From positions 1-50,040 of the forward strand of contig MUNG01000092.1 in the NCBI GenBank assembly GCA_002154585.1: a DNA stretch of 50,040 nt, given 5' to 3'. Below the pieces are notes generated by a model that saw only the letters and a program-made list of their open reading frames with translations, made no database searches and was not told where the DNA came from. The translations under genes were made by a program, and so were the position numbers. Below, in pieces: positions 10,712 through 31,056 of this stretch. Numbering within the stretch: the stretch's first letter is position 1; the number at the start of each line of letters is the position of its first letter. The DNA comes from Streptomyces pseudogriseolus (GTDB lineage Bacteria; Actinomycetota; Actinomycetes; Streptomycetales; Streptomycetaceae).

Positions 10712-11077
10712 ATGTTCCTCTTTCGCCGAGCCGGGGCACGCGTCACGGTCGACGAGGCGCGCAGCCGCACCAGCGGCGATCAGCCCGACGCCGTCCTGCT
10801 GGACGTGCGTGAGAAGCCCGAATGGACCGCGGGCCACGCTCCGGGCGCCGTGCACGTACCGTTGACGAAACTGATCGCAGGCGCCACCCTGCCCGCCCAG
10901 GCGCAGGGGCGACCGCTGGTGGTGATCTGCCGCAGCGGGCACCGCTCCCAGCAGGCGGCCAAGCTCCTCGCCGAACGCGGAGCGCAGGCGGTGGACGTTG
11001 AAGGCGGCATGAACGCGTGGGCCGCTGCCGGGCACCCGGTCGTCGACGAACGCGGGAACAGCGGCCGGATAGCGTGA
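10712..11077 (+). CDS. single-domain rhodanese (sulfurtransferase)
   Basis: The 121-residue protein has the rhodanese signatures LLDVREKPEWTAGHAPGAVHVP and an active-site loop CRSGHRS with Cys73. A five-to-six-residue loop starting with Cys binds persulfide sulfur. There is no signal peptide, so it acts in the cytoplasm. The start is either ATG 10712 or GTG 10709, both served by AAGGAAGG. It lies 35 bases after the MBL-rhodanese gene, and its stop overlaps the GTG of the TauE gene, so it is within one operon. Confidence 0.9.
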   Translation: MFLFRRAGARVTVDEARSRTSGDQPDAVLLDVREKPEWTAGHAPGAVHVPLTKLIAGATLPAQAQGRPLVVICRSGHRSQQAAKLLAERGAQAVDVEGGMNAWAAAGHPVVDERGNSGRIA

Positions 11078-11817: not shown

Positions 11818-11954
11818 ACACGAAGGCCGTCAACAGCCCAGAAGCAGGGACCGGGAGGGCTTCTCCGGTCGGCGCGCATCTCAGGACCGCCTGCGGCCCG
11901 GCTCCCGTCAGATCAAGCTCCACCACAACTTCCGCACCCGTAAGGACATCTGCC

Positions 11955-15310: not shown

Positions 15311-15679
<369 letters not shown>

Positions 15680-15797: not shown

Positions 15798-16439
15798 TCA
15801 GCCCTTGCCGAGCAGTCCGTTCATCTGCTCGATCTCCGCGCTCTGTGAACTGATGATCTCGCCGGCCATCTTGGTGGCCGGTCCGTAGGCGCCATCGGCC
15901 TGCTCGGTCTTCGCCATCTCGACCGCGCCCTCGTGATGCTTGATCATCATCTGCATGAAGGCGGTGTCGAACGCCTTGCCCGAGGTGTTCTCGAGTTCGG
16001 TCATCTCCTCGGCCGTCATCATGCCGCCCATGTCATGCATGGAGTGGTCCATGGCACCCTCGGCGGGCACTTCCTCGCCCCAGGAGGTCAGCCACCCGGA
16101 GAGCGTCTTGATCTCCGGGTCCTGGGCCTTCTTGATGTCTGCGGCGAGCTTTTTCACCTCGGCCGACTGCGCGCGGTCGGGCGCGAGGTCGGCCATTTCG
16201 ACGGCCTGGCGGTGGTGGGGGATCATCCCCTTCGCGAAGGCGACGTCGGCGGCGTTGTGCTGCCCCTGCGACGACGATGCCGACGCCGGGGCGGACGAGG
16301 AGGTGGTGGCGTTGTGGCCGTTGTGTCCGGCCGGGCTGTCGCCGTCGCCGTTGCCGCCGCAGGCGGCCAGGACGAGTGCTGCCGCACCCGCGGCAGCAAC
16401 GGCGGCGGTACGGCGGACGAGGGAACGCTTGCGGATCAT
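15798..16439 (-). CDS. DUF305 lipoprotein
   Basis: The 213-residue protein has a lipoprotein signal (MIRKRSLVRR, hydrophobic stretch, LAAC with Cys27) and two DUF305 repeats, each with a double His (GMIPHHRQAVEMA and MMIKHHEGAVEMA). A Met/His-rich DHSMHDMGGMM lies between them. DUF305 is a ferritin-like four-helix fold, and many members lie in copper or metal clusters. The paired HH and Met-rich loop suggest copper binding outside the membrane. It is on the same strand as the DUF6153 gene 120 bases upstream. Confidence 0.9.
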   Translation of the reverse strand: MIRKRSLVRRTAAVAAAGAAALVLAACGGNGDGDSPAGHNGHNATTSSSAPASASSSQGQHNAADVAFAKGMIPHHRQAVEMADLAPDRAQSAEVKKLAADIKKAQDPEIKTLSGWLTSWGEEVPAEGAMDHSMHDMGGMMTAEEMTELENTSGKAFDTAFMQMMIKHHEGAVEMAKTEQADGAYGPATKMAGEIISSQSAEIEQMNGLLGKG

Positions 16440-17800: not shown

Positions 17801-18952
17801 ATGAAACACCTGACCTGCACGTCTGTCCTGGCTGCGCCGACGCAGCCGCTCCCCGAAGCCAAGCGCCCGACGTACACTCCCGCCGGCCTGGTCGGCAACA
17901 CACCCGTCCTCCACATCGGAGCTCCCTTCACCACCCCGGGGCGCGGCTTCTGGGCCAAGATCGAGGGCCACAACCCGGGCGGCATCAAGGACCGCACCGC
18001 ACTGCACATGGTGCGAGCCGCCCGCGAGCGCGGACAGCTCCTGCCCGGCGCCCGCATCGTCGAGTCCTCCTCCGGCACGCTCGGTCTCGGCCTGGCTCTC
18101 GCCGGCGCGACCTACGGTCATCCGGTCACCGTCGTCACCGATCCGGGCATGGAGCCCTTGATGACGGGACTCCTCACGGCATACGGGGCCGTCGTGGACG
18201 TCGTCGACACCCCGCTCGCCTGTGGAGGCTGGCAGGGCGCACGTCGTCAGCGCGTCGAAGAACTCCTCGCTGTCCATCCCGACGCCTGGTGCCCTGATCA
18301 GTACAACAACCCGGAGAACGTGGCCGCGTATGCTCCGCTCGCCCACGAACTCGTCGCCCAGCTCGCCCGGATCGACACGCTTGTCGTGTCCGTCGGCACG
18401 GGCGGCCACTCCGCCGGGATCGCCTCCGTACTGCGTGGGTTCTTCCCCCGCCTGCGGGTCGTGGGGGTGGACACCTGCGGCTCGACCATCTTCGGACAGC
18501 CCGCGGCACCCCGTCTGATGCGGGGTCTGGGCAGCAGCATCCATCCGCGCAACGTCGCCTACGACCTGTTCGACGAGGTCCACTGGGTCGCCGCGCCGGA
18601 AGCGGTGTGGTCGGCACGCAGGCTGGCCCGTGACCACTACGCCACCGGGGGCTGGAGCGTCGGCGCGGTCGCGCTCGTCGCCCGGTGGGCGGCGCACACC
18701 CTGCCGGCCGAGAACCGGATCGTCGCGATCTTCCCCGACGGCCCGCAGCGCTACGTCGGCACGGTCTTCGACGACGCCTACTGCCGTGAGCACGGCCTGC
18801 TCGACGACCCATCCGCCGGCGAACCCGAGGAAGTCGTCCGTCCGGAGGACCGGGTGGTGACCCGCTGGACGCGCTGCACCCACGTCACCGATCCCCTGGC
18901 TCCCGCCGGCGCACAGGATGTGGGAGACAGGACGGTAGGAGTCGCGCGATGA
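17801..18952 (+). CDS. PLP-dependent cysteine-synthase-like enzyme
   Basis: The 383-residue fold-type II PLP enzyme has the lysine motif [13 protein letters not shown] (Lys63), the substrate loop ESSSGTLG and the phosphate loop VGTGGHSAG. The Lys motif is one residue shorter than the usual NPxGSxKDR, lacking the Ser, so it may not be a standard O-acetylserine sulfhydrylase. The tail after about residue 330 is extended. GGAGA precedes ATG 17801. The stop overlaps the ATG of an MFS transporter (ATGA), which suggests the product is exported. In this context it may capture sulfide or persulfide sulfur into a thiol amino acid. Confidence 0.85.
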
Positions 18953-20205
18953 AGCACCTGTGGCAGCAGTCCCGCTCGTTCCCCGCCCCGATCCGGCTCT
19001 TGATGGCCAACCAGTTCGCCATCAACCTCGCCTTCTACATGCTGATGCCCTACCTGGCGGCTCACCTGGCCGGCGGGCTCGGGCTGGCGGCCTGGGCCGT
19101 CGGACTCGTCCTGGGCGTCCGCAACTTCTCCCAGCAGGGCATGTTCCTCATCGGAGGCACGATCGCCGACCGTTACGGCTACAAGGCCCCGATCATGGCG
19201 GGCTGCCTGCTCCGCACCGTCGGCTTCGGCATGCTCGGCTGGGTCGACAACCTGCCCGCCCTTTTCGCTGCTTCGGCGGCCACCGGCTTCGCAGGTGCCC
19301 TGTTCAATCCCGCCGTACGCGCCTACCTCGCGGCCGAGGCCGGCGAGCGGCGGGTGGACGCCTTCGCGACCTTCAACGTCTACTACCAGGCCGGCATGCT
19401 TCTCGGCCCCCTGGTGGGCCTGGCTCTGCTGGCCGCCGACTTCCGGCTCGTCTGCACGGTCGCAGCCGCGATCTTCACCCTGCTGACCGTCCTGCAGTGG
19501 TGTGCCCTGCCCGCCCGCCGTGGCGACGTCCCCGGCGCCACGCCGGGCAACGTCCTGACGCAGTGGCGCACGGTCGTGGCCAACCGGCCCTTTCTCCTCT
19601 TCGCCCTCGCGATGATCGGCTCCTACGTCCTCACCTTCCAGGTCTACCTGGCGCTGCCTCTGGCTGCGGCCGACGTCCTCGGTGCGCAGGGCACCTGGGC
19701 GACCAGCGGACTCTTCGTCATCTCCGCCGCGGTCGCCGTGATCGGGCAACTCCGGCTCACTGGCTGGGCGAAGCGACGCTGGACCCCCGCTCAGGCCCTC
19801 GTCCGCGGACTCACCGCCATGGGAATGGCCTTCGTGCCGCTCGCACTCGCACCACCCGAAGCTCCCGCCGCCGTACTCACCGCACTGGTCCTGGCCGTGG
19901 CTCTCCTGGCCGTCGGCGGCGTCATCGTTTATCCGTTCGAAATGGACACCGTCGTCACGCTCTCGGGCAACCGGCTCGTGGCAACCCACTACGGGCTGTA
20001 CAACACCGTTTCGGGCCTCGGCATCACCCTCGGCAACCTCGTCACCGGAGTCTTGTGGGACTTCGCCGCCCGCGCGGACGCCTTCTGGCTGACGTGGTGT
20101 TTCCTGGCCGCGACCGGACTGGCCTGCGCGGCGTCCGTCGCCGCCCTGGAACGTAGCGGGCGCCTGATCGCGCGGACAGCGGAGGCGCCGCTTGCCCCCG
20201 CATGA
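18949..20205 (+). CDS. MFS transporter (12 membrane segments)
   Basis: The 418-residue protein has about 12 hydrophobic segments and an MFS motif A variant [13 protein letters not shown] between helices 2 and 3. It resembles MdtH-type exporters. It is translationally coupled to the cysteine-synthase-like gene by a 4-base overlap, so the likely cargo is that enzyme's product or a related thiol metabolite. This assignment comes from context only. It is followed by 316 bases without a clear gene before the Nuo-like operon. Confidence 0.85.
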
Positions 20206-20521: not shown

Positions 20522-20872
20522 GTGAGCGGCTTCACTGCCGCACTGTCCTTGCTGGGCCTGGCTCTTCTGGCGGTGGCCGGAGCGTACGGAGCGGCCTGGG
20601 CGCTGCGGATCTCCTCCGATCCGCTGCCCGCTCAGCCGTTCGGGTCGGGACTGGAGCCGGCGGAACACGCGGTCAGCCGTTTCCACGTGCGCTGGTACAC
20701 GGTGACGATGCTCTTCCTCGCCTTCGACATGGAGATGGTCTTCATGTACCCGTGGACGCTCGTGATCTCCGCGATGGGGCCCAGCGCGGTGATCGAGATG
20801 TTCGTCTTCCTTGCCGTCCTGCTCACCGGTGTGGTCTACGCATGGCGGGAAGGAGCGCTGCGGTGGGCCTGA
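20522..20872 (+). CDS. nuoA: NuoA-like subunit (complex-I-type)
   Basis: The 116-residue protein has three membrane helices. The NuoA core RFHVRWYTVTMLFLAFDMEMVFMYPW with Asp69 and Glu71 is clear. The usual loop YECG, whose Cys marks active/deactive transitions in complex I, is replaced by FGSGLEP (residues 40-46), so the Cys is missing. GTG 20522 starts the gene. It opens an eight-gene operon in which most neighbours overlap. NuoA normally sits at the junction of the membrane arm and quinone site with NuoH, J and K. Confidence 0.88.
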   Translation: MSGFTAALSLLGLALLAVAGAYGAAWALRISSDPLPAQPFGSGLEPAEHAVSRFHVRWYTVTMLFLAFDMEMVFMYPWTLVISAMGPSAVIEMFVFLAVLLTGVVYAWREGALRWA

Positions 20873-22176
20873 CCGCCGTACTGATCCGCGCGGCGGCCCT
20901 GCGGCCACGGGTCCTGCTGGTGACCATGCCGGGCGGTACCGGGGTGCGCCTCGCCGCCGAGACGGAGCTGCGGTCGCGGGACTGGCCGTCGGCGCCGACC
21001 CCGGCTGGAGCCGACCTGATGCTGGTGGCAGGTCCGGACTGCTCCCGGCTCGGCCCGGCGCTGGACAGGCTGTGGCAGGACATGCCCCGGCCGTGTGTGC
21101 GCGTGCGGGCGGTGACGGCGGACGAAGTGGCGCCGGTTCTCGACGCCGGTCGCACCCGGCTCGGTGCACCGGGCGGAGAGCCCGGCGAGCCCGACGGCAG
21201 CGTGGGGATGAACGGGCACGGATCCGCTGAGCCAGAGTCAGCGGGAAGGCCGGACGGAGAACCCGCGCGGGCCCATCGGGAGGAGCAGACAGAGGGAGAG
21301 CACGACGTTCGCGGCGTCACGGGTCACGAGGAAGGCGAGCACGACCATGACGGTCATCCCGGTCACGGTCATGGCGACATGGAGATGCCGGGCGGACTGG
21401 CCATGGCTGAGCCGGGGGAGGACCGCGACGGTCTGACGCTGGACCGCCTGCACGTGGCGTTGGGCCCGTTTCTGGCCGACTGGCCCGCCGGGCTGACCAT
21501 CCGTGTGGTGCTTCAGGGCGACGTCATCCAACGGGCCGACCTCGACGAGCCGGCGGTCGGCAGGCCGGGCGACCCCTTCTGGAGCCGGCCGTGGATCCGA
21601 GCCGCCTCGGGTGAGCCGGTGGGCGTGGGGGAGGCCGCTCGGCTGCGGGCGGCGGCGCACCTGGACAGTCTGGGCCGACTGCTGTCGGTGGCGGGCTGGC
21701 CCGCCGAGGCGGTGACGGCCCGGCGACTGCGCGACGATCTGCTGGACGGGGCGCCCGCCTCCGCGGTCCTGCCACGCGTGGAGCGCTTCGCCCGGCGGGT
21801 CGGTCGGTCACGGACCCTGTACTGGCTGACGCGAGGCATCGGCCCGCTCAGCGCGGTCGACGCCCGGGCCGCCGGTGTCACCGGCCCCGCCGTACGGGCG
21901 GCAGGCGGAGACGTACCGGCCCGCTACCGACAGTGGCTCACCGATGCCGTGGGCGACGTACGGCGGATGAACGCGACTGCCCGCCTCGATCCGGTGGCGC
22001 AGGAGAGCCCGCGCGGCCGGTGGGACGCCGAACGCCCGCCGTCGGCCGCCCTGGCGACGCTGCTTCCCCGCCTGCTGGTGGGAGCCGAGTTGGGCGCGGC
22101 CCGTCTCGTCGTCGCCAGCCTCGACCCGGACCCGGACGAACTCGCCGTCGGCCGGCTGGAGGCGGCCGGTGGCTGA
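20863..22176 (+). CDS. His-rich chimeric protein with NuoB-like and NuoD-like remnants
   Basis: This 437-residue protein starts at GTG 20863, inside nuoA, with AAGGAG 7 bases upstream. Residues 45-80 (GADLMLVAGPDCSRLGPALDRLWQDMPRP) resemble a NuoB strand but lack the CC and other Fe-S cysteines. Residues 155-171 are His-rich (HDHDGHPGHGHGD). Residues 170-225 (GDMEMPGGLAMA, LHVALGPFLADWPAGL, LQGDVIQ) resemble NuoD, yet no HRGxEK motif exists. The C-terminal 200 residues are helical and unassigned. It is probably a connector replacing the peripheral arm and may bind metal through the His tract. Confidence 0.7.
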   Translation: MGLTAVLIRAAALRPRVLLVTMPGGTGVRLAAETELRSRDWPSAPTPAGADLMLVAGPDCSRLGPALDRLWQDMPRPCVRVRAVTADEVAPVLDAGRTRLGAPGGEPGEPDGSVGMNGHGSAEPESAGRPDGEPARAHREEQTEGEHDVRGVTGHEEGEHDHDGHPGHGHGDMEMPGGLAMAEPGEDRDGLTLDRLHVALGPFLADWPAGLTIRVVLQGDVIQRADLDEPAVGRPGDPFWSRPWIRAASGEPVGVGEAARLRAAAHLDSLGRLLSVAGWPAEAVTARRLRDDLLDGAPASAVLPRVERFARRVGRSRTLYWLTRGIGPLSAVDARAAGVTGPAVRAAGGDVPARYRQWLTDAVGDVRRMNATARLDPVAQESPRGRWDAERPPSAALATLLPRLLVGAELGAARLVVASLDPDPDELAVGRLEAAGG

Positions 22177-23098
22177 GACGGGGACGTGGTGGGCGCTGCT
22201 GGTCGCGCCGGCGATGCTGCTCGGCTTCGCGGCGGCGGCCTTGGCAGCCGACGCGGCACTGGATGCCCGGAACGCGGGCCGCCCGATCACCGTCAGCACC
22301 GTCGTTCGGCCGTTTCTCGCCGTGCCGCGTGCGGTGTTGGCGCAGCCCCGGCGGTTGCCTGCGTCGGACCGGTTGCTGTGGCGGGCGGGCGTGATCACCG
22401 TGCCGGTGGCCGCGGTGCTGTCCACGCTGGTCATCCCCTTCGGGGACCACGTTGTCGCCGACCTGTCGGTCGGAGTGGTGTGGTTCAACGCCATGGAGGT
22501 GCTGACCTGGGCCGGGCTGTGGTTGGCCGGCTGGGGTCCGAACGCCGCGTTCTCCCTGGTCGGCGGCTACCGCTTCCTCGCCCAGGGCCTGGCCTACGAG
22601 CTGCCGCTGATGTTCGCGCTGATCTCGGCGGCCACGGGCGCCCAGTCCCTGCGGGTGACCGACATCGCCGGCGCCCAGCACGGCCTGTGGTACGCGGTGT
22701 GGATGCCGTTCGCCTTCGTCGTCTATCTGGCGGGCGTGCTGGCCTTCAGCTTTCTGGGCCCGTTCGCGTATCCGGCCGGACGCGACGTCGCCGAGGGCGT
22801 ACTGGGGGAGACGAGCGGGGTGGACCGGCTGCTGCTGGAGGCCGGACGGTGGCTGTGGCTGGCGGCGGGGGCGGCGATGGCGGTGCCGCTGTTCCTGGGC
22901 GGCGGCGCCGGGCCGGGGCTGCCGCCGTGGGCGTGGTCATTGGTCAAGACGCTGCTCGTACTGGCGGCTCTGGTGTGGACGCTGCGGCGGCTGCCCATGG
23001 TGCGCGCCGACCGGTACGTGGAACTGGCCTGGGTGGTGCTCCTCCCCCTGTCCGTCCTTCAGACCCTGGTCCCGGCCTTGACCGATCTCAGCCTCTAG
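22169..23098 (+). CDS. nuoH: NuoH-like subunit
   Basis: The 309-residue protein has about eight membrane helices. The NuoH fingerprint is AGWGPNAAFSLVGGYRFLAQGLAYELPLMFALI, around residues 120-150 (given here in parts: AGWGPNAAFS and AQGLAYELPL). Glu in YELP is the conserved quinone-tunnel residue. GTG 22169 overlaps the stop of the preceding chimera gene. Canonical NuoH lies below the quinone site and transmits the redox signal into the pumps. Here no quinone-reducing NuoB/D or NuoI is encoded, so the input is unknown. Confidence 0.85.
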   Translation: MAETGTWWALLVAPAMLLGFAAAALAADAALDARNAGRPITVSTVVRPFLAVPRAVLAQPRRLPASDRLLWRAGVITVPVAAVLSTLVIPFGDHVVADLSVGVVWFNAMEVLTWAGLWLAGWGPNAAFSLVGGYRFLAQGLAYELPLMFALISAATGAQSLRVTDIAGAQHGLWYAVWMPFAFVVYLAGVLAFSFLGPFAYPAGRDVAEGVLGETSGVDRLLLEAGRWLWLAAGAAMAVPLFLGGGAGPGLPPWAWSLVKTLLVLAALVWTLRRLPMVRADRYVELAWVVLLPLSVLQTLVPALTDLSL

Positions 23099-23112
23099 GA
23101 AAGGAGCGCGGC

Positions 23113-23682
23113 ATGGACACGACGGGCATGGTGCTGCTGTGGGTACTGGGCGTGCTTGCCCTCGTCGGCGGTGTCCTGGTGTTCACCCTGAACTCCATGG
23201 CCCGGGTCACCTTCGCGCTCCTGGGCTCCCTGGTGTGCGTCGGCGGGGTCGTGGCCGTGCTACGGCTGCCGTATCTCGGCGTGGTGATCGTGCTGATGAT
23301 GGTCATGGAGATGGTGATCATGGCGGTGTTCATGATCGCGTACATGATGAACCCGGCCGGTCTGATGCCGATGTCGATGCTGCACAACAAACGCGGCTCA
23401 CTGGTCGTCAGCGGTCTCGTGTTCGCCGCTCTGGTCGCAGGGATCTTCCTGGTTCCGTGGCCCGATCGCACGGGAGCGCGGCCCAGGGACACCACGTTCC
23501 AGGTCGGCATGTCGTTGATGGGCGACCAGATGCTGACCATGGTCACCCTTGGATTCGTTCTCCTGGCCACCATGGTGGGCGCCACCGTCCTCGCCACCCA
23601 CCGCGGACGGTACGACCGCTTCGGCGACGACCTCGACCAGCGGCCCGCGAACGACCCGGCCGACGGGGGAGTGGGCCGATGA
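23113..23682 (+). CDS. nuoJ: NuoJ-like subunit, methionine-rich
   Basis: The 189-residue protein has about five helices. Position in the operon and the helix pattern fit NuoJ. The usual VQVIVYAGAVMVLFLF segment is replaced by a Met-rich stretch: residues 62-89 contain 11 Met, including LMMVMEMVIMAVFM and YMMNPAGLMPMSM. A membrane Glu66 is present there. GGAGCG precedes ATG 23113. Such a Met cluster is unusual for complex I and could reflect metal handling or simply hydrophobic drift. Confidence 0.8.
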   Translation: MDTTGMVLLWVLGVLALVGGVLVFTLNSMARVTFALLGSLVCVGGVVAVLRLPYLGVVIVLMMVMEMVIMAVFMIAYMMNPAGLMPMSMLHNKRGSLVVSGLVFAALVAGIFLVPWPDRTGARPRDTTFQVGMSLMGDQMLTMVTLGFVLLATMVGATVLATHRGRYDRFGDDLDQRPANDPADGGVGR

Positions 23683-23984
23683 CGTTCGAACTCCTCCTGG
23701 TCCTCGCCGCCGGTCTGTTCTCCACCGGCCTGTTCGGTGCCCTCTCCCAGCAGTCCATCGTGATGATCATGATGGGCGTCGAGCTGATGATCGGCGGGGT
23801 CATCGTCGCCGCCGCCGACTTCTGGTACTTCCTCGCCCCCGCTGCCGGCAGTGGCCAGGTGGTGATCGTGACGGCTGTGGTGGCGATGGCCGTGGAGATG
23901 GCCATGGGCTTCGCCGTCACCACCGCGATCTACCGCGCCCGGCAGGTCGACATGACCGACATGGCCGAGGACCTGAAGGGATGA
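23679..23984 (+). CDS. nuoK: NuoK-like subunit
   Basis: This is a 101-residue protein with three helices, exactly the normal NuoK length. The two conserved membrane glutamates are present: Glu35 in MMGVELMIGG and Glu73 in AMAVEMAMGF. These residues form the E-channel proton path. ATG 23679 overlaps the nuoJ stop (ATGA). Retention of both Glu residues suggests that this part of the pump works. Confidence 0.88.
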   Translation: MTFELLLVLAAGLFSTGLFGALSQQSIVMIMMGVELMIGGVIVAAADFWYFLAPAAGSGQVVIVTAVVAMAVEMAMGFAVTTAIYRARQVDMTDMAEDLKG

Positions 23985-25852
23985 GCACGGTGCTCTGGCT
24001 GCTGATCGCTCTCCCCATCGGGGCGGGAGCGGTGCTCGCCCTGACGGGACCCCGCCGCAACCGACTGGTCCCCGCCGGCGCTGCTACGGTCGCCGCGGTC
24101 ACGCTCGGTGCCGCGATCGCCGCCGCGGTGACCCGTCCGGCCGCGAGCGCGCCGCTGTTCGCCGGGATGGAGGCGGGGCTGGCGGTGGACGGCCTGTCCG
24201 CCGTGATGGTGGTGACCGTCGCCGCGGTCACCCTCGCCGTCCTGGTCTTCGCGACGGGAGAGTTCGCCGCAGACGAGAACCGGGGACGGTTCTTCGGGCT
24301 GATGCTGCTCTTTGCCGGCGCCGTGCTCGTGACCGTCACCGCGACCACCCTGCCGCTCCTGCTGATGGCCTGGGAGGTGATGGGCGCCGCCAGCTGGGCC
24401 CTGATCGGCTACTGGTGGCAGCGGCCCGAACGTGCGGAAGCCGCCGACGTCGCGTTCCTCACCACCCGCGCCGCCGACCTCGGCCTGTACCTGGCGGCCG
24501 GCGCCGCCGTGGCCGGCGGGGTCGGCTCCCTGCGCCTCGACGCCCTGCCGCACGCCGCGTCGCCGTGGCTGCACGTCGTATCCGCGGGCATCGTCGTGGC
24601 CGCCCTGGGGAAATCCGCACAACTTCCTTTCTCCTTCTGGCTTTCGCGTGCCATGCAGGGCCCGAGCCCGGTGTCCGCACTGCTCCACTCGGCGACCATG
24701 GTCGCAGCCGGCGCCTACCTGCTGCTGCGGCTGGTCCCGCTGCTGGACACCACGGAATGGGCCGGTCCGGTGGTCGCCTGGGCCGGCGCGGTCACCGCCC
24801 TGGCCCTGGGCCTGGTCGCGGTCGCCCAGACCGACCTCAAGCAGCTCCTCGCGGCCTCCACCTCTGCTCAGATCGGCTTCATGGTGCTGGCCGCGGGCAG
24901 CGGCGGCGTCGCCGCGGGCACCACGCAACTGGTCGCACACGCCGCCACCAAGTCGGGTCTGTTCCTCGCCGCCGGGGCGTGGCTGACAGCGCTGGGCACC
25001 AAACAACTCCCGGCGCTGCGCGGTGCGGCCCGCACTCACCGGCTGGTCGGTGCGGCCTTCACTGCTGGCGCGCTCACTCTGGCCGGGCTGCCGCCCCTGT
25101 CCCTGTGGGCGGCCAAGGACGAGGTCCTTGCCGCCGCCCGCACCGGGGGAACCGGGCTGTACGCGGTGGGCCTCGCGGCAGCCGCCGTCGCCGCCGTCTA
25201 CAGCATCAAAGCCGTCTGGTACGTCACCCGTCCCCTCCCGGAGAGTCCGCAGGCCCGATATGACACCGAGCAGCGCGGCACCCGCGGCGTCGCCCGTACG
25301 GCATCGGCTCCCCTCCTCGCCCTCACCCTTGCCGCGGCGGTGCTGGGCGTGCTGGCCCTGCCGGGACCGGCGTCCTGGCTGAGGGGGCTGGTCGGCGCCC
25401 GGGGCGAGCCATCCCCCGCCCCGTGGGAGCTCGGGCTGTCCGCCGGCGTGGCGTTCGCCTCCGCCGGCCTGGCCTGGTGGTGCGCGTCCCGCCCGGCGCC
25501 CGTACCGCGCGCCGCCGCACGTGCGGCTCACGGGTGGCTGTACCTGGAGCAGGCCGCGCGAACCGTCGTGGCGCGTCCGGTGCTGGGCCTGGCCCGGACG
25601 CTGGCCGCCTTCGACGACCGCGTCGTCGACGGCGCCGTACGGCAGACCGCCCGCGGCGGCCTTGTGACGGCCCGGCTCGCGCGCCGCCTGGACGACGGCG
25701 GAATCGACGGCGCCGTCCGGGCGGTCGCCGCGAGTGCGCGGCGCCTGGGCCACTGGGCGCGCCGCCCGCAGACCGGACTGCTGCATCAGTACTACGCCCA
25801 GGCCGTCGTCGGCTTCCTCGTGTTCGTCCTGATCATCCTGTTGGTGAGGTAA
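23981..25852 (+). CDS. nuoL: NuoL-like antiporter-type subunit
   Basis: The 623-residue protein has about 14-16 helices. The proton-path residues are retained: Glu132 in LLMAWEVMGAASWALIGYW and Lys211 in GKSAQLPFSFWLSRAM, followed by GPSPVSALLHSATMV. A C-terminal amphipathic stretch (about 520-600) and a last hydrophobic helix (VVGFLVFVLIILLV) match the NuoL lateral helix. ATG 23981 overlaps the nuoK stop. NuoL/Mrp-type subunits pump protons or Na+. Presence of the lateral helix argues for a true multi-subunit arm rather than a lone antiporter. Confidence 0.9.
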   Translation: MSTVLWLLIALPIGAGAVLALTGPRRNRLVPAGAATVAAVTLGAAIAAAVTRPAASAPLFAGMEAGLAVDGLSAVMVVTVAAVTLAVLVFATGEFAADENRGRFFGLMLLFAGAVLVTVTATTLPLLLMAWEVMGAASWALIGYWWQRPERAEAADVAFLTTRAADLGLYLAAGAAVAGGVGSLRLDALPHAASPWLHVVSAGIVVAALGKSAQLPFSFWLSRAMQGPSPVSALLHSATMVAAGAYLLLRLVPLLDTTEWAGPVVAWAGAVTALALGLVAVAQTDLKQLLAASTSAQIGFMVLAAGSGGVAAGTTQLVAHAATKSGLFLAAGAWLTALGTKQLPALRGAARTHRLVGAAFTAGALTLAGLPPLSLWAAKDEVLAAARTGGTGLYAVGLAAAAVAAVYSIKAVWYVTRPLPESPQARYDTEQRGTRGVARTASAPLLALTLAAAVLGVLALPGPASWLRGLVGARGEPSPAPWELGLSAGVAFASAGLAWWCASRPAPVPRAAARAAHGWLYLEQAARTVVARPVLGLARTLAAFDDRVVDGAVRQTARGGLVTARLARRLDDGGIDGAVRAVAASARRLGHWARRPQTGLLHQYYAQAVVGFLVFVLIILLVR

Positions 25853-25857
25853 CCCCT

Positions 25858-27363
25858 GTGCTGAGCGTCGTCACGTTCTTGCCGCTGCTGGCGTGCGCGG
25901 TGCTTCCGCTCCTGCCGCGCACGCTCCCCGACCGGGCGTACGTCTGGCTGTGGATCGCCACGTCCGCCGCCGACCTTGCCCTGGTCATCGCCCTGTGGGT
26001 CGGTTACGACACCCGTGGCGGGATGCAGTACGAGCAGCGGGCGCGCTGGATCCCGAGTGCCGGCGTCGGCTATCACGTGGGCGTCGACGGCCTGTCCCTC
26101 CCCCTGGTCGCCCTGACCTGCCTGCTCTTCCTGGCCGTCGCCGTCCACTCCCTGCGCGAGAAGCGGCGGGTGCGCTCCTACGTCTGTCTCTTTCTTTTCC
26201 TCCAGTCCGTCAGCATCGGCCTGTTCGTCGCCCTTGACCTCATCCTCTTCTTCGTCTTCTTCGACCTCTCCATCGTCGGCATGTTCTTCGTCATCGCGGG
26301 CTGGGGACACGGCGAACGCGCCCGCGCCGCGGCGCTGAGGTTCTTCCTCTACACCTTCATCGGCTCCCTCGCCCTCCTGCTCGGCTTCATCGGGCTCTGC
26401 CTGGCAGCCGAACCGCACACCTTCGACATCGTCGACCTCACCCGTGTCAACCCACTGGCCGGACACGGGTTGTACGCCGGTCTGGTACTCCTGGCCATTG
26501 GGGTAGGACTGGCGGTCAAGACCCCGACCGTGCCGTTCCACACCTGGCTGCCGCCCGCGCACACCGACGCACCGGCCGCCGGCTCGGCGATCCTCGCCGG
26601 AGTCCTGCTGAAGATGGGCACATACGGTTTCGTACGCATCGCCATGCCGCTGTTGCCCGGCAGTTGGCGCCACTACGCCCTCGTCATCGTGGTCGTCGGC
26701 GCCGTGTCCGTCGTCTACGGAGCGCTGGTGGCGCTGGCGCAGACGGACTTCAAACGCATGATCGCCTACACGTCGGTCAACCACATGGGGTACATCGTCC
26801 TCGCGGTCGGCGCCGCCGGGACGCTCGCCGGTACCGACGCCCAGGCCCGCTCCCTCGCGGTGACCGGAGCGGTCACCCAGATGGTCAGCCATGGCCTGAT
26901 CACCGGAGCCCTGTTCCTGCTCAGCGGCGTGCTCTACGACCGAGGCCGGACGTACGAGATGGACGCCTACTCCGGTCTGGCGGCCCACACTCCGCGGTTC
27001 GCGGCAGTCACCGCTGTCGCCGCGTTCGCCAGTCTCGGCATTCCCGGCTTCTCCGGCTTCATCGCCGAGTTCCAGATCTTCACCGGCAGCCTGGCCTCCC
27101 AGGCCGTCGCCACCGCCCTCGCCGTGACCGGCATCCTGATCACCGCGGCCCTCTTCCTGATCGCACTGCGGCGCATGTTCCTCGGCCCCGCGCGCCTGCC
27201 CGAGACCATTCCCGCCGGCGGCATCCGGGACCTCAGAACCACCGAGGCGCTGTCCACGGTGCCGCTGCTGGCGGTCGCCCTGGTGATCGGTGTCGCACCG
27301 CGCTGGCTGCTGGACGTGATCGAGCCGGCCGGGCGCACCCTGACCGGCCTGGTGGCACGGTGA
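25858..27363 (+). CDS. nuoM: NuoM-like antiporter-type subunit
   Basis: The 501-residue protein has about 14 helices. Lys221 in VKTPTVPFHTWLPPAHTDAP and the helix AGVLLKMGTYGFVR are conserved. The pump glutamate usually found in VFFE is Asp136 here (FFVFFDLSIVGMFF), a conservative but notable change. GTG 25858 starts the gene 6 bases after nuoL, with GGTGAGG upstream. The stop overlaps nuoN. In complex I, NuoM is a middle pump of the membrane arm. Confidence 0.9.
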   Translation: MLSVVTFLPLLACAVLPLLPRTLPDRAYVWLWIATSAADLALVIALWVGYDTRGGMQYEQRARWIPSAGVGYHVGVDGLSLPLVALTCLLFLAVAVHSLREKRRVRSYVCLFLFLQSVSIGLFVALDLILFFVFFDLSIVGMFFVIAGWGHGERARAAALRFFLYTFIGSLALLLGFIGLCLAAEPHTFDIVDLTRVNPLAGHGLYAGLVLLAIGVGLAVKTPTVPFHTWLPPAHTDAPAAGSAILAGVLLKMGTYGFVRIAMPLLPGSWRHYALVIVVVGAVSVVYGALVALAQTDFKRMIAYTSVNHMGYIVLAVGAAGTLAGTDAQARSLAVTGAVTQMVSHGLITGALFLLSGVLYDRGRTYEMDAYSGLAAHTPRFAAVTAVAAFASLGIPGFSGFIAEFQIFTGSLASQAVATALAVTGILITAALFLIALRRMFLGPARLPETIPAGGIRDLRTTEALSTVPLLAVALVIGVAPRWLLDVIEPAGRTLTGLVAR

Positions 27364-28781
27364 ACGAGAACCTGGCCGCACTCGTCCCCGAACTCGCTCT
27401 CCTCGGCGCCGCCGTCATCGGCCTTCTCGCCGGCTCATGGCTCCCCCGACGCCGTCAGTGGATCGTCGCCGCCCTCGCAGCCGTAGCTTGTGCGACGGGA
27501 CTGGTGGCCACCGCTGTCACCATGGCGACGGACCGGGAACAGACCGTCTTCTCCGCCGCGTTCGCCGTCGACACCGCGACCGGCGTCGGCCGGCTCATCG
27601 TCCTCACAGCCCTGCTGCTGGTCATCGGCATGTCCGTGGAAACCGTGAGGAATCACGCACGCGAGGCCGAGTACTGGGTACTGCTCCTGATGACCGGCGC
27701 GGGCACACTCGCCCTCGTCGGCGCGAACGACCTGCTGATGCTGTTCGCCGCCTACCTACTGGCCAGCGTTCCTGCCTACGCACTCGCCGGTTTTGCGAAG
27801 GACGCCCTCGGCACCGAAGCGGCCCTGAAGTACTACCTGATGGGCGCCCTGCTGGGCATCACCATGCTCGCCGGCACCGGGCTCCTGTACGCCGCCGGTC
27901 ACGCCACCCACTACGGCAGGCTCGCCACGACCCTGCCCTCCGCCCCCTACGGACTCGTAGCCGTCGGACTCGTCGGTGTCCTGGCCGGCCTACTCTTCAA
28001 GATCGGCGGGGTGCCGGCCCACTTCTGGGTGCCCGACGTCACCGACGGAGCTCCGGCACCCGTCGCCGCGTACGTCACCACGCTGCCCAAAGTCGGCGGT
28101 CTGATCGCCGGTTACCGACTGCTGCACCAGGCACTCGCCGACAGCGACGTCAACTGGTCGCTACTGATCGCGATCCTTGCCGCGGTCACCATGACCTTGG
28201 GGAACCTCGGGGCGTTCTTCCAGACCTCGGTCAAACGCCTGCTCGCCTACTCCACGATCAGCCAGGTCGGGTACCTCCTGATGGCGTTGGCCGTCACCAC
28301 CCGCAGCGACCTCGCCCAGCGGAGTCTGCTGCTCTACCTGGCCGCCTACTCCCTCACCAACCTCGGCGCCTTCGCCGTAGTCACGGCACTCCCTCAGGCC
28401 CGCGCTCTGGATGACTACCGTGGCCTCGCCCGCCGCCACCCCGGCCTCGCGGCCGTGCTAGTCGTCTGTCTGCTGGGCCTGGTCGGCACGCCGCCCACCG
28501 GCGTCTTCCTCGGCAAGCTGGAGATCTTCAGCGCGACCATCGACGGCGGCTACACCTGGCTCGCCGCCCTGGCGGTCGCCAACACCGTAGCGTCGCTCTT
28601 CTACTACCTGCGCTGGCTCGGCCCGCTGTTCCTCACCACCGACACGGCAGCCGTCGACTCGCCTGAGGGCTGGGGAGGCTGGTCTGCCGTCACCGCTCAC
28701 CTGGCAGGCGTCCTCTCCCTCACGCTCGGCATTGCCGGCCAAGCCGTTCTCACCGTTGCCGAGGGCCCGCTGCTGTCGTGA
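27360..28781 (+). CDS. nuoN: NuoN-like antiporter-type subunit
   Basis: The 473-residue protein has about 14 helices. It contains LFKIGGVPAHFWVPDVTDGAP (proton-path Lys), LPKVGGLIAGYRLL, TSVKRLLAYSTISQVGYLLM and GTPPTGVFLGKLEIF, all NuoN hallmarks. GTG 27360 overlaps the nuoM stop. It ends the Nuo-like operon, and no gene for NuoC, E, F, G or I follows. The next gene, 105 bases on, converges from the opposite strand. Confidence 0.9.
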   Translation: MNENLAALVPELALLGAAVIGLLAGSWLPRRRQWIVAALAAVACATGLVATAVTMATDREQTVFSAAFAVDTATGVGRLIVLTALLLVIGMSVETVRNHAREAEYWVLLLMTGAGTLALVGANDLLMLFAAYLLASVPAYALAGFAKDALGTEAALKYYLMGALLGITMLAGTGLLYAAGHATHYGRLATTLPSAPYGLVAVGLVGVLAGLLFKIGGVPAHFWVPDVTDGAPAPVAAYVTTLPKVGGLIAGYRLLHQALADSDVNWSLLIAILAAVTMTLGNLGAFFQTSVKRLLAYSTISQVGYLLMALAVTTRSDLAQRSLLLYLAAYSLTNLGAFAVVTALPQARALDDYRGLARRHPGLAAVLVVCLLGLVGTPPTGVFLGKLEIFSATIDGGYTWLAALAVANTVASLFYYLRWLGPLFLTTDTAAVDSPEGWGGWSAVTAHLAGVLSLTLGIAGQAVLTVAEGPLLS

Positions 28782-28885: not shown

Positions 28886-29818
28886 TCAGTGACGGTGGGC
28901 GAGTTCGAGGAACTCGTGGAGGTCGTGGGCAGCTTCCAGTGCGCAGAGGCTGGTGGCCGCGAGGAGTGCGGTGGCGGCGATGAGCAGCAGGGGCGGGCTC
29001 TGGGGTGGCGGTGCGAGGAGGGCGGCCACGCGGCGGGGCACGATGCCGGGGCTGGTGCGCCGGTTCAGGATGCCGAGTGCGGCGGTGGGGGTGCGGCGCC
29101 GGGTACGGCTGCGTTTGGCGGCGACGGCGGCTTTGGCGACGGTTTCGGCGACGGCGCGTCGGTTGCCGGTGCGGGCGGCGGCGTGTTCGTCGGCCCAGCG
29201 TTCGACGCAGTAGGCGACGGCGGTGGCCAGGGGGCGCAGCAGGGGGTTGGCGGCGGCGGAGAGCTGGGCGAGGAAGACGAACGCGTAGTGGTGGTGACGC
29301 AGGTGGGCGTGTTCGTGGGCGAGGAGGATGTCGTGCCCGGTGGGGTCGAGGGCGTCGAGCATGCCGTGCGAGATGACAATGCGGCCGGGCAGGCCCGGCA
29401 TCGCGTAGGCGTCGGCGCCCGGGTCGTCGGTGATGACGACGGGGTCGGGTCCGGGCAGGCAGGCGGCTTCCAGGGCCGCGGCCCACAGGGCTCCGGCTCT
29501 GCGTGTGGCCAGCCGGACGGCGGCGACGACCGCGAGGGCGAGTAGGACGGCACCGGCGAGGGCGGCCGGCCACGCTGCTGGATCCTGGCGGGCGATCACG
29601 TCGGGTGAGTAGCCCTTGAGGGAGACGACGAGCGGGATGCGGACCAGTCCTGCCAGAGCAAGCAGCCCCAGCACGACGGTGCTGGAGGCGGCCAGGACGA
29701 GTCCTGCGGTGGTGAGCAGCCAGGTCGCCAGCCTCGGCTCCAGGCGGCGGGCCAGCGGGCCCGCGCTCAGGCCGGCCAGGACGGGGAAGAGCAGCGGCAG
29801 GTAGACGGCCAGATGCAT
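28886..29818 (-). CDS. M56 family membrane metallopeptidase (BlaR1/MecR1-like sensor domain)
   Basis: The 310-residue protein has about four or five hydrophobic segments. The zinc motif HEHAH (His168, Glu169, His172) is preceded by GHDILLA and followed by a third ligand region ERWADEHAA. M56 proteases such as BlaR1 cleave or inactivate their BlaI partner when a cell-wall signal is sensed. There is no C-terminal penicillin-binding domain, so the ligand is not a simple BlaR1 beta-lactam. It lies 16 bases after the BlaI-type gene on the same strand. Confidence 0.87.
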   Translation of the reverse strand: MHLAVYLPLLFPVLAGLSAGPLARRLEPRLATWLLTTAGLVLAASSTVVLGLLALAGLVRIPLVVSLKGYSPDVIARQDPAAWPAALAGAVLLALAVVAAVRLATRRAGALWAAALEAACLPGPDPVVITDDPGADAYAMPGLPGRIVISHGMLDALDPTGHDILLAHEHAHLRHHHYAFVFLAQLSAAANPLLRPLATAVAYCVERWADEHAAARTGNRRAVAETVAKAAVAAKRSRTRRRTPTAALGILNRRTSPGIVPRRVAALLAPPPQSPPLLLIAATALLAATSLCALEAAHDLHEFLELAHRH

Positions 29819-29834
29819 CGCTGGGACCGGCCTT

Positions 29835-30221
29835 CTACTCGTCGGAGTCCAGCAGACGGCGCAGCAGGTCCTCGTCGTCGTCGGACAGCTCGTTCACGAA
29901 GCGGGTCAGCACCGACTTACGGTCGCTGCCGCCCTCCAGGACCTGGTGCATGTGCCTGGCGGTGAGTCCGGGCTCGTCCGTGACGGGCGTGTACGCGTAG
30001 CTGCGGCCCCGGGGGGTGCGTTCCAGCACGCCGCGGCCGTGGAGCCGGGCAAGGGTGGTGGCCACCGTGGTGTGGGCCAGGGATGCGGCCAGGCGTTCGG
30101 CCACCTCACCCGGGGTGAGGGCCGATCCGGAGGTTTGCAGCAGGGCGAGGATCTCAGCCTCCAGGACTCCGTTGGCCCGTCGCTTTCCGCCGAGGCCCGG
30201 CACTCGTTCGTCAGCGCCCAC
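29835..30221 (-). CDS. BlaI/MecI/CopY family repressor
   Basis: The 128-residue protein has a winged-helix N-terminal part: NGVLEAEILALLQ, LTPGEVAERL, LAHTTVATTLARLHGRGVLERTPRGRSYAYTP. A helical dimerisation tail ends EDLLRRLLDSDE. GTG 30221 follows GGAAGGA. It is paired with the M56 protease downstream and divergent from PAP2-uppP. A 40-bp perfect palindrome 32 bases upstream of its start should be its operator, giving control of both its own operon and PAP2-uppP. Confidence 0.9.
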   Translation of the reverse strand: MGADERVPGLGGKRRANGVLEAEILALLQTSGSALTPGEVAERLAASLAHTTVATTLARLHGRGVLERTPRGRSYAYTPVTDEPGLTARHMHQVLEGGSDRKSVLTRFVNELSDDDEDLLRRLLDSDE

Positions 30222-30252
30222 GGACGTCCTTCCTTGCGCGTCCTCTACAGTC

Positions 30253-30292
30253 GACACTGTATCTTCTATTCGCGAATAGAAGATACAGTGTC
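30253..30292. promoter_or_regulatory. 40-bp perfect palindrome, probable BlaI operator
   Basis: The left arm GACACTGTATCTTCTATTCG is followed directly by its exact reverse complement, with no spacer. It contains the ACTGTA/TACAGT dyad expected of BlaI-family sites, and an inner TTCTATTCG/CGAATAGAA dyad. It is AT-rich against the local background and lies midway between the divergent BlaI and PAP2 genes. Confidence 0.85.
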
Positions 30293-30354
30293 CGTCCATC
30301 GTCCCATGACCCTTGGCAGGGTTGCCGCGGTGGCCTGTGCAGACAGGATGCCTC

Positions 30355-31056
30355 ATGTCTTCTCCCGGTGCGATGGACGCCCGCACCACGGATCCGCCGT
30401 GGTGGCCGGCCGCCGGGGTGGCGCTGATGTGTACGGCGCTGCTCGTGGCGCTCGTCGCGGTCACCGCCTCGGCGCACGGGGCGCCGGTCGGCGTGGATTG
30501 GGCCATGCACGACTGGGCGCTGGGCAGCCGCCCGCCGTGGGCGGTTCATGTGGCGGTGGGTGTCACCGTGGCCGGCAGCGGGGTGCCGGCCTACGCCCTG
30601 GCGGCGCTGGCCGGGGCTTGGGCGTTCGGCCCCGGCCGGTGGCGCGGGGCGCTGTTCGGGACGCTGGCGCTGGTGTCGGCGCAGCTGCCGCGCATCCTTC
30701 TGGCCGAACTGGTGGCGCGGCCGAGGCCGCCGGCCAGGGACTGGGCGTGGTCGGCGAGCGGGTACGCGATGCCCTCCGGCCACACCACCACGTCGATGGC
30801 CGTCGCCGTCCTGCTCACCGTCGCCGTGCGCCGTGGCGCCCCGGGCCGGTGGCGTCCCGTGCTGTCGGCGGTGCCGGTGGTGTGGGCGGTGGCGGTGGGT
30901 CTCAGCCGTGTCTGTCTCGGCATGCACTGGCCCACGGACGTGCTGGCCGGGTGGCTGCTCGCCGCCGCGTGGGCCGGGCTCGCCGGGGTGTTCCTCGTCC
31001 TTTGCCGCCGCCGGGAGGCCGGCGCAATCCAAGCAAGTGAAGGTGACAGTACGTGA
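30355..31056 (+). CDS. PAP2 family lipid phosphatase
   Basis: The 233-residue protein has about six helices. The PAP2 signature is present in order: LVARPRPPARDW, YAMPSGHTTTS, and SRVCLGMHWPTDVLAGW with the catalytic His. Such enzymes dephosphorylate undecaprenyl pyrophosphate or phosphatidyl phosphates at the outer face. ATG 30355 follows a weak CAGG site. The stop overlaps uppP, so both undecaprenyl-pyrophosphatase types are made together under the BlaI-type operator. Confidence 0.9.
   Translation: MSSPGAMDARTTDPPWWPAAGVALMCTALLVALVAVTASAHGAPVGVDWAMHDWALGSRPPWAVHVAVGVTVAGSGVPAYALAALAGAWAFGPGRWRGALFGTLALVSAQLPRILLAELVARPRPPARDWAWSASGYAMPSGHTTTSMAVAVLLTVAVRRGAPGRWRPVLSAVPVVWAVAVGLSRVCLGMHWPTDVLAGWLLAAAWAGLAGVFLVLCRRREAGAIQASEGDST

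Follow-up and report, generated by a model that had tools for sequence, protein, structure and literature searches.

A complex I-like operon without an electron-input module in Streptomyces pseudogriseolus: a candidate proton-driven Cu(I) transporter

Introduction

What can the membrane arm of respiratory complex I do when it is encoded without the module that feeds it electrons? The question is raised by an operon in the window, by which we mean the whole 50,040-nucleotide stretch of S. pseudogriseolus DNA analysed here. Below we describe its genes, the residues that its family has lost and gained, and its genomic neighbours, and weigh what the encoded complex might do.

Results

Gene content of the operon

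Positions 20522-28781 hold an operon of eight plus-strand genes, overlapping or closely spaced, in the order nuoA, chimera, nuoHJKLMN (Table 1). Pfam assigns A, H, J, K, L, M and N, so that by homology the membrane arm of complex I is present; together with the profile matches of the second gene, this confirms the eight-gene operon proposed in an earlier sequence-only reading. The absence of an electron-input module, reported there as well, held up in our scan: among 45 distinct window ORFs, none carries an Fe-S or NADH domain (subunits C, E, F, G and I included), the scan having passed over some long ORFs, e.g. 1-570, 11017-11817 and 48618-50039. NCBIfam, scanned with A, the chimera, H, J and K, gave equivalog scores under the cut-off (NuoJ 34.8 against 174, NuoH 117 against 305, NuoA 81.7 against 163); NuoK is below the cut-off in all six models, and the chimera falls into no family. 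Pairwise dN/dS between the window operon and three relatives is 0-0.42, in agreement with the earlier view that selection persists.

Table 1 Features of the operon and its surroundings in the window
Feature	Position	Strand	Evidence
DUF305 gene (CopM family) with MDHSMHDMGGMM	15798..16439	-	PF03713 E 4.4e-51; nearest copper-type neighbour
NuoA	20522..20872	+	PF00507 E 9.9e-28
NuoB-NuoD fusion (chimera)	20863..22176	+	Profile matches to NuoB/NuoD structures; AF2 model; Foldseek
NuoB-like domain, chimera residues 1-104	20863..21174	+	Profile, AF2 model
His/Met-rich linker, chimera residues 105-181	21175..21405	+	pLDDT <50 at 105-176
Truncated NuoD-like domain, chimera residues 182-430	21406..22152	+	Profile, AF2 model, Foldseek
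NuoH	22169..23098	+	PF00146 E 5.8e-41; loop comparison
NuoJ	23113..23682	+	PF00499 E 4.7e-13
Met ladder coding stretch, NuoJ residues 62-91	23296..23385	+	Met counts across 61 sequences
NuoK	23679..23984	+	Pfam; both channel Glu kept
NuoL	23981..25852	+	Pfam; channel Glu, Lys, His kept
NuoM	25858..27363	+	Pfam; Glu144 = Asp, remaining channel residues kept
NuoN	27360..28781	+	Pfam; Glu133 lost, channel Lys kept
M56 peptidase and BlaI/CopY-type repressor, adjoining nuoN	28886..30506	-	Context; role unproven

The second gene is a NuoB-NuoD chimera

Judged by profile matches and a predicted structure, the second gene is a truncated NuoB joined to a truncated NuoD via a His/Met-rich linker (start GTG at 20863; an ATG at 20842 is a possible alternative). 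Pfam gives a weak Complex1_49kDa match (E 0.003-0.004), and a profile built from 18 relatives hits solved chains of NuoB (E 2.4e-8) and NuoD/NuoCD (E 2e-5). In Foldseek, the AF2 model (pLDDT 80.7, pTM 0.79) matches the complex I chain 6yj4_D (E 1.4e-7, TM 0.39). The linker is disordered in the model and ends in MEMPGGLAMA; its length and number of His differ between relatives, and some family members (e.g. L036, L047 and L052) have a poor His-rich segment or none.

Fe-S cysteines are not conserved in the chimera: no Cys column reaches 60% or more among the 18 relatives, and the window protein has two Cys in total, against the four N2 cluster cysteines of NuoB. With presumed ligand positions, the Cys-Cys position reads Pro-Gly in the alignment, and the His and Tyr of the NuoD Q-site, at what we take to be their positions, look lost as well. 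Neither the identity of the chimera nor its His/Met linker had been noticed in the sequence-only reading, and the same is true of the NuoJ methionine ladder, the copper context and the published accounts of such operons described below.

Lost quinone residues, kept pump residues and a methionine ladder

In NuoH, the quinone loop (ExxRxPFD; canonical E-T-N-R-A-P-F-D) has become F-S-F-L-G-P-F-A, and none of the 59 sequences has the Glu or the Arg in the respective column. The pump residues, labelled in what we take to be E. coli numbering, have largely persisted: Glu81 of NuoA is kept in 59/59 and Asp79 in 55/59, Glu36 of NuoK in 59/59 and Glu72 in 56/59 (Asp in the other three), and each of the six NuoL channel residues compared in 59/59. 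In NuoM, Glu144 is replaced by Asp in 57/59 and the other channel residues are kept; NuoN has lost Glu133 in 59/59 and kept its channel Lys. The earlier statement that pump residues are mostly kept is borne out.

The most conspicuous gain lies in NuoJ, where M29, M62, M63, E66, M67, M70, M74, M78, M79, M87, M89, H91 and M140 are invariant in 61/61 sequences. Residues 57-91 contain 10-13 Met in each of the 61, against 1-3 in each of 32 canonical NuoJ, and the pattern of ladder, Glu and His was found in 61/61 family members versus 0/32 ordinary NuoJ, a comparison in which 30 canonical loci were drawn from the best PF00499 matches and which is therefore biased to ordinary NuoJ. NuoA has invariant His55, Met72 and Met75 and a nearly invariant His49, a gain judged against two canonical NuoA. 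On an ideal helix, NuoJ Met 63, 67, 70, 74 and 78 share one face; the predicted NuoJ structure (pLDDT 53) is too poor to position the ladder. Five of the 61 NuoJ have a His-rich tail, three of them together with a His-poor chimera linker and two with both segments. Met-rich helices might also be suited to a different metal or have a different role.

Distribution and other nuo sets in the genome

Homologues of the operon are spread over Actinobacteria, Halomonas and Alphaproteobacteria, and are present in 27 of the 394 sampled genomes of the class. Some are plasmid-borne (25 matches in 23 records, of which 17 were examined), from sources that include soil, river sediment and sputum, and most plasmid records examined annotate the operon as NADH-quinone oxidoreductase subunits. 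The sequence-only reading had allowed for simple gene loss in a genome devoid of the normal nuo operon; the same genome has an ordinary one on contig C290 (A, B, D, G, H, I, J, plus L, M and N by similarity), so the window operon is not merely a complex I with lost genes. The second nuo cluster of S. coelicolor that it mentioned, nuo2 (SCO4599-4608), seems, from the available parts of its description (PMC9239103), to be a different cluster, whose likely counterpart in the present genome is scattered over contigs C53, C400 and C231.

Copper genes accumulate around the operon

Neighbours were counted up to 10 kb from each of 39 operons, which come from 37 whole genomes (G285 left out). Three families, DUF305/CopM, multicopper oxidase and CsoR, are enriched 25-36 times over expectation. 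Near the operon lie 15 of 103 DUF305 genes (0.46 expected; 11 strong matches and four partial ones with E 1e-7 to 1e-9, after three rows, one second gene piece and two weak, had been dropped) and 8 of 49 multicopper oxidase genes (0.22 expected; matches weaker than about 2e-20 excluded). For the CsoR family the count is 10 of 95 (0.40 expected), against 2 of 148 (0.61 expected, P 0.12) for the control family of CDF Zn/Cd transporters, which is not enriched, the near genes of both families having been chosen by eye from lists and their distances computed afterwards. The pattern C-x24-H-x3-C, which we take to mark Cu-type members, is present in 9 of the 12 CsoR-family neighbours that the motif picked out. 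Of 26 non-Streptomyces genome loci, 15 have one or more copper families nearby, compared with 2 of 38 random loci, and on alphaproteobacterial plasmids cueR and a metal P-type ATPase stand near the operon or its truncated copy. Counts over 73 loci were made after removal of 11 duplicate or truncated loci. Within Streptomyces, 30 of 39 loci are without a copper-family gene within about 9 kb; copper genes thus accompany the family overall, but not most Streptomyces copies.

In the window, DUF305 is the sole copper family near the operon. It occurs in 293/394 class genomes and 23/27 operon carriers, and its presence or absence does not discriminate because it is common anyway. A CsoR-like gene of the window was discarded as a copper regulator: it does not have the His of Cu-type members and resembles CstR, and its best NCBIfam match, the copper sensor RicR, is far below the cut-off. 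Copper genes and the operon both lie on mobile islands, which could account for part of the linkage measured against random loci. The neighbourhood as a whole argues strongly for a link between the operon family and copper, for which the literature searched, with partial coverage, yielded no precedent. Sulfur oxidation, to which, as one option, the operon had earlier been proposed to couple, was rejected as a general partner: rhodanese genes resembling the ones at 9-12.5 kb turn up at three further loci of those compared (L065, L131 and L142), whereas copper genes recur often. The ion-driven transporter, another option offered there, agrees with the explanation that we prefer.

Discussion

A proposed proton-driven route for Cu(I)

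The gene content, residue patterns and neighbours suggest that the operon may be a redox-dead complex I derivative of bacterial copper resistance, in which the proton motive force moves Cu(I), probably outward, and we regard the case for this as almost evenly balanced. The antiporter-like subunits N, M and L and the A-J-K region would still conduct protons, while the Fe-S module would be gone and a NuoB-NuoD cap without cofactors would have taken the place of the quinone site. The copper, most probably Cu(I) from the cytosol, would be gathered by a His/Met-rich segment (the chimera linker or, in some lineages, the His-rich NuoJ tail) and passed to the NuoJ methionine ladder, next to which the Met and His that NuoA has gained would lie. 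Downhill proton flow via N-M-L would then drive Cu(I) across the membrane, to exit probably toward DUF305/CopM-like proteins and multicopper oxidase. It is from the residues and neighbours that we infer copper binding, transport, direction and coupling.

With somewhat more reserve, we propose that this could be the first known complex I derivative taken off electrons, a pump driven by the proton motive force with a copper path along the NuoJ ladder. As part of the Cu(I)-pump reading, and just as tentatively, the ladder would occupy the very position at which, in complex I, quinone chemistry is coupled to proton pumping. If true, an operon that is present in 27 of the class genomes and has so far been read as a marine adaptation would be reassigned to copper handling, and would offer a natural experiment on a central open question, how the A-H-J-K region of complex I couples to three proton channels; with the driver replaced and the channels kept, ligand-gated coupling would become testable without quinone or Fe-S chemistry.

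Competing explanations

In the published reading, the operon encodes a pump for marine or osmotic adaptation, which either pumps protons or exchanges Na+ or K+ for H+ and helps to maintain ion gradients in salt water. Its occurrence in marine isolates (Penn and Jensen 2012, PMC3314556; Kocuria flava S43, PMC6002675; Streptomyces SM17/SM18, PMC6676996) speaks for this, as do the conserved pump subunits, the K+ channel gene that stands before nuoA in Acuticoccus, and a nearby ion-channel gene in Martelella. We nevertheless consider it quite unlikely, since the available parts of these three accounts name no driving reaction, the operon also resides on the plasmids of soil, river-sediment and sputum origin and, as PMC6676996 reports, in S. 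albidoflavus SM254, which comes from mine fluid rich in copper, and the Met ladder and copper genes are left unexplained. The copper evidence for our preferred explanation speaks likewise for an ion channel gated by copper, or a proton module with a protective role, in which copper on ladder and linker would gate proton flow and aid energy metabolism under copper stress without being moved itself; arguably, a sensor would hardly need at least 10 Met in one stretch and three antiporter subunits, and we hold this version to be unlikely.

Copper in the chimera or NuoJ might instead replace the Fe-S clusters, with menaquinone taking up electrons from Cu(I) of the cytosol and protons being pumped. 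The retained NuoB/NuoD positions and copper-type ligands are compatible with such a cupro-quinone oxidoreductase, but the missing Glu and Arg of the NuoH loop (59/59), the apparent loss of the NuoD Q-site His and Tyr at their presumed positions, and the disordered linker of variable length make it very improbable. We give equally little credence to the same machine serving a soft or transition metal other than copper (Ag(I), Zn or Ni): His-rich stretches bind Zn and Ni too and Met sites accept Ag(I), yet many neighbours are copper-named (cueR, Cu-type CsoR, multicopper oxidase, CopB, CopM family; some P-type ATPases are only 'heavy metal') and the Zn/Cd CDF family is not enriched. Least probable of all is that the operon is a relic in decay, or encodes an extra membrane arm completed by NuoB/C/D/E/F/G/I from other complex I sets. 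Other sets do exist in the genome, and hybrid assembly has been suggested for S. coelicolor nuo2 in the available parts of PMC9239103; against this, the operon has its own NuoB-NuoD cap and a rewritten quinone loop, and its invariant new residues span phyla. The relic was rejected on the low dN/dS.

Comparison with known systems

A 'partial NDH-1 operon', nuoA-hypothetical-nuoHJKLMN, has been described from Salinispora, Kocuria and sponge Streptomyces (PMC3314556, PMC6002675, PMC6676996). In these descriptions, as far as available, the order A-hypothetical-H-J-K-L-M-N and the subunits are the same as here, and the window operon very probably belongs to the same family. The available parts leave the hypothetical gene unidentified, do not mention copper neighbours or a Met ladder, and interpret the function as osmotic or marine adaptation.

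With respiratory complex I (NDH-1, including 11-subunit forms), the operon shares homologous A, H, J, K, L, M and N, traces of B/D and most pump residues. It differs in having no conserved Fe-S cysteines and no C/E/F/G/I found alongside, in the loss of the NuoH loop and NuoN Glu133, and in a rewritten NuoJ helix 3. Antiporter-like subunits are also common to Mrp antiporters, MBH, MBS and formate hydrogenlyase, and chains of MBS and formate hydrogenlyase (6u8y_L, 7z0s_E) are similar to the model of the chimera. Mrp is defined by MrpE/F/G and is without NuoH and NuoA; here, none of MrpE/F/G was found among the window ORFs scanned and NuoH and NuoA are present, which sets the operon apart from an Mrp Na+/H+ antiporter. 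MBH, MBS and formate hydrogenlyase retain metal clusters. To our knowledge, no complex I relative of the Mrp, MBH, MBS or formate hydrogenlyase type is a copper system. The likeness to CusA, a proton-driven copper efflux system, and to Ctr1, a Met-lined copper channel, is one of working only and not of homology: a Met ligand pathway in both and, in CusA, the proton drive.

An additional, redox-dead nuo set

The operon encodes a real, conserved, often mobile, redox-dead derivative of complex I. Its eight coupled genes (A, a chimera, H, J, K, L, M and N), proposed by the sequence-only reading, are borne out as ORFs that overlap or are separated by at most 14 bases, seven of them with Pfam matches. 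GC content is 71% across the window. The nearest relative of the chimera is 93% identical, and all 33 named loci in that search were Streptomyces. Of the Nuo membrane-arm subunits, NuoA, NuoH, NuoJ and NuoK of the window were compared with the NCBIfam models of their ordinary counterparts, and none reached any of the cut-offs.

Coordinates of the operon and of neighbouring genes in the window
Feature	Position	Strand	Identified by
Eight-gene operon	20522-28781	+	
nuoA	20522-20872	+	Pfam
chimera (NuoB-NuoD)	20863-22176	+	profile/structure matches
nuoH	22169-23098	+	Pfam
nuoJ	23113-23682	+	Pfam
nuoK	23679-23984	+	Pfam
nuoL	23981-25852	+	Pfam
nuoM	25858-27363	+	Pfam
nuoN	27360-28781	+	Pfam
PLP enzyme, then MFS transporter	17801-20205		
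Persulfide-type cluster (rhodaneses, CsoR-family repressor)	9312-12530; 15311-15670		
CcdA/DsbD-like and DsbA-like pair	12605-14217	-	

The genome contains three NuoH genes. The sequence-only reading had allowed that the normal nuo operon might be absent; an ordinary one was found on contig C290, with A, B, D, G, H, I and J (Pfam) and L, M and N (similarity to those of the window). Additional NuoH, J and L on C53, NuoB on C400 and NuoD on C231 probably correspond to nuo2 of S. coelicolor, split by fragmented assembly. The operon in the window is distinct from both and brings the number of sets to three.

Counting chimera-profile matches at E <= 1e-10 as carriers, we found 27/394 genomes (16/137 genera) in the class and 23/296 genomes (19/198 genera) in the phylum. 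Twelve of the 23 phylum carriers, with weaker matches, belong to one deep family; of two loci examined there, L158 has all eight genes and L157 has A, H, J, K, L, M and N, with the chimera found by profile only. Plasmid carriers comprised 17 records; a Halomonas-protein query gave 8 records, two common to both, its matches including Roseivivax, Acuticoccus and Martelella. Wherever all eight genes matched, their order was always A-BD-H-J-K-L-M-N (BD, chimera).

Chimera and linker

A profile built from 18 chimera relatives matched solved NuoB (2fug chain 6, E 2.4e-8) at profile positions 44-82 and NuoD/NuoCD chains (7q5y_B, E 2e-5) at 280-357. The AlphaFold2 model (27-row alignment; pLDDT 80.7, pTM 0.79) folds into two domains, between which residues 105-176 form a disordered linker. 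Its top Foldseek match was complex I chain 6yj4_D (E 1.4e-7), and further matches included MBS and formate hydrogenlyase chains; TM-scores reached only about 0.4, a modest value that fits a protein made of two domains and truncated. Since the window chimera has only two Cys and no alignment column reaches 60% Cys across the 18 relatives, the known mode of binding Fe-S cluster N2 is not available to it. What we take to be the Cys-Cys ligand position of NuoB is Pro-Gly in the chimera alignment.

The His- and Met-rich linker is nearly absent in some members and extends to long HGEHGEH-type runs in others, and in many actinobacterial members an MxMPGGLxMA-like conserved stretch closes it. Some members (L036, L047, L052) have few linker His. 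A His-rich C-terminal NuoJ tail (at least 8 His within the last 60 residues) occurs in 5/61 loci, accompanying a His-poor linker in L150, L202 and L203 and a His-rich one in L053 and L123; in Halomonas L060 the linker is His-free and the NuoJ tail shorter, with 7 His. The metal-binding-looking segment thus changes subunit between lineages. Among the Alphaproteobacteria, NuoJ of L202 (13805-14707) and NuoJ of L203 (13874-14584) each have a long tail of this kind.

Pump residues, quinone loop and new ligands

The claim that pump residues are mostly kept held over 59 sequences, taken from 58 loci plus the window (E. coli residue numbering). Conserved in 59/59 were NuoK Glu36, NuoL Glu144, Lys229, His254, His338, Lys342 and Lys399, and NuoM Lys234, Lys265, His322, His348 and Glu407; NuoK Glu72 was kept in 56, with Asp in the other three, and at the NuoM Glu144 position 57 sequences had Asp, the other 2 keeping Glu. 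NuoN Glu133 was replaced throughout (Leu 56, Val 2, Phe 1); NuoN Lys217 was kept in 54/59 and Lys247 and Lys395 in all. NuoA retained Asp79 in 55/59 and Glu81 in 59/59. In the NuoH loop E-T-N-R-A-P-F-D, Glu and Arg were replaced in 59/59, mostly by F-S-F-[W/L]-G-P-F. Pairwise dN/dS between the window operon and three Streptomyces relatives was 0-0.42, low for J, M and K (0.05-0.22) and highest for the chimera (0.37-0.42).

Adding Roseivivax L202 and Acuticoccus L203, with similar sequences all retained, gave 61 NuoJ sequences, in which M29, M62, M63, E66, M67, M70, M74, M78, M79, P81, L84, M87, M89, H91 and M140 were invariant. A second set (n = 28, window and Streptomyces loci) had the same residues, Thr at 63 in L050 being the sole exception. 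This ladder was absent from 32 canonical NuoJ (30 from the phylum, two from the window's genome), where column 63 is Tyr and column 70 Leu in 32/32, column 66 is Ala/Ser, and stray Met occurs at columns 78, 89 and 140 only. Residues 57-91 contain 10-13 Met in 61/61, versus 1-3 in 32/32 canonical sequences. On an ideal-helix projection Met 63, 67, 70, 74 and 78 span at most 80 degrees; the NuoJ structure model was poor (pLDDT 53) and does not give the ladder's position.

NuoA acquired His55, Met72 and Met75 (61/61) and His49 (59/61) relative to two canonical copies; NuoH acquired Met148 (56/61) and NuoL a C-terminal His602 (60/61). In NuoM and NuoN, every Met or His conserved at 90% or more also occurs among the few canonical copies compared. 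NuoK Met29, 31, 32 and 70 occur in 61/61, counted within the operon family. The A/J region couples the quinone site of complex I to the pumps. As the gains lie mainly in NuoJ and NuoA, the new soft-metal ligands cluster in this coupling region.

Copper genes near the operon

Around 39 operons in 37 whole genomes, genes within 10 kb exceeded uniform expectation for DUF305 (15/103, 0.46 expected), multicopper oxidase (8/49, 0.22) and the CsoR family (10/95, 0.40); control CDF Zn/Cd transporters were not enriched (2/148 versus 0.61, P 0.12). Clustering of flanking ORFs with no families preselected (73 loci, 38 controls) was led by DUF305 (16 loci, 0 controls), multicopper oxidase (13, 0) and P-type ATPase (11, 2). 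Two of the ten near CsoR-family genes (window, L131) are CstR-like, and 9/12 motif-bearing neighbours over all loci carry the Cu-type CsoR pattern. A seed search for eight copper families found at least one flanking 15/26 non-Streptomyces genome loci (L131 only through its CstR-like gene), 6/8 non-Streptomyces plasmid loci, a count biased because most seeds came from these, and 9/39 Streptomyces loci versus 2/38 random loci. CopM is reported to bind Cu(I) and to confer copper resistance in Synechocystis (PMC4335983); it is probably a DUF305 protein, as term counts in that paper support.

Of 17 plasmid loci examined by annotation or seed search, 13 had copper-type genes within 12 kb, about 10 of them independent because three pairs have a common island. 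Halomonas KO116 and V. sulfidaeris carry CopD, multicopper oxidase and CopB; M. paragordonae a copper-translocating ATPase; M. avium and M. intracellulare an HMA protein and a P-type ATPase labelled only "heavy metal". The others are Curtobacterium, Arthrobacter, two Pseudonocardia, Ornithinimicrobium, Roseivivax (cueR directly 3' of nuoN), Acuticoccus and Martelella, where cueR, an ion-channel gene and DUF305 lie directly upstream of nuoA and a transposase truncates the operon within the chimera. Rhodococcus oxybenzonivorans is ambiguous (CopY/BlaI-type and M56 genes only). No copper-type gene lay within 12 kb in Gordonia, R. pyridinivorans or Streptomyces NBC_00080, the last carrying just nuoA and a partial chimera.

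Against this association, Streptomyces copies mostly lack copper neighbours, and the window is marked by DUF305 only. In Streptomyces alone, 0/17 multicopper oxidase genes and 3/26 DUF305 genes (0.06 expected) lay within 10 kb. DUF305 presence fails to predict the operon (23/27 carriers versus 293/394 genomes). Mobile islands gather metal genes, and the linkage statistics use uniform and random-locus expectation, not island-matched loci. We consider a link to copper likely. Proton-driven Cu(I) export is the best single mechanism, a tentative prediction with slightly less than even chances.

Other neighbouring genes

The window PLP enzyme is closest to SbnA (2,3-diaminopropionate synthesis), scoring under the cut-off; the PLP-MFS pair, immediately 5' of the operon here and also upstream in seven other Streptomyces loci (L026-L028, L034, L053, L159, L161), might synthesize or export a metal-binding metabolite. 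One window rhodanese has a weak metallo-beta-lactamase match, and the CsoR-family repressor (C-x24-G-x3-C) looks like CstR. The CcdA/DsbD-DsbA pair recurs near L142, and CcdA alone near L064, L129, L136 and L145. An F510_1955 family annotated as glycosylhydrolase, in 10/73 operon loci versus 1/38 controls and beside DUF305 in L064, L145, L146, L159, L026 and others, is perhaps a further copper-associated protein. Four genomes (G437, G216, G080, G440) have, in the vicinity of nuoA, short matches to DUF305 that cover profile positions 1 to about 67 and are possibly a small copper-binding partner; in G437 and G216 the match precedes the chimera by about 0.6 kb.

Comparison with earlier reports

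Among the papers listed by our literature searches, none was seen to connect the operon with copper. Term searches of three papers on copper-resistant bacteria (PMC8478169, PMC9948745, PMC9436591) gave no match for NADH, nuo, quinone or DUF305, and one of the pMAH135 plasmid paper (PMC4324632) gave none for NADH, nuo, copper or P-type. A partial NDH-1 operon of seven genes, encoding the membrane part, was presented as a marine adaptation by Penn and Jensen (2012; PMC3314556), and such operons were later reported in Kocuria flava (PMC6002675) and sponge Streptomyces, there as nuoA, a hypothetical protein and nuoHJKLMN (PMC6676996). The latter text also lists S. albidoflavus SM254, an isolate from copper-rich mine fluid, as having the operon.
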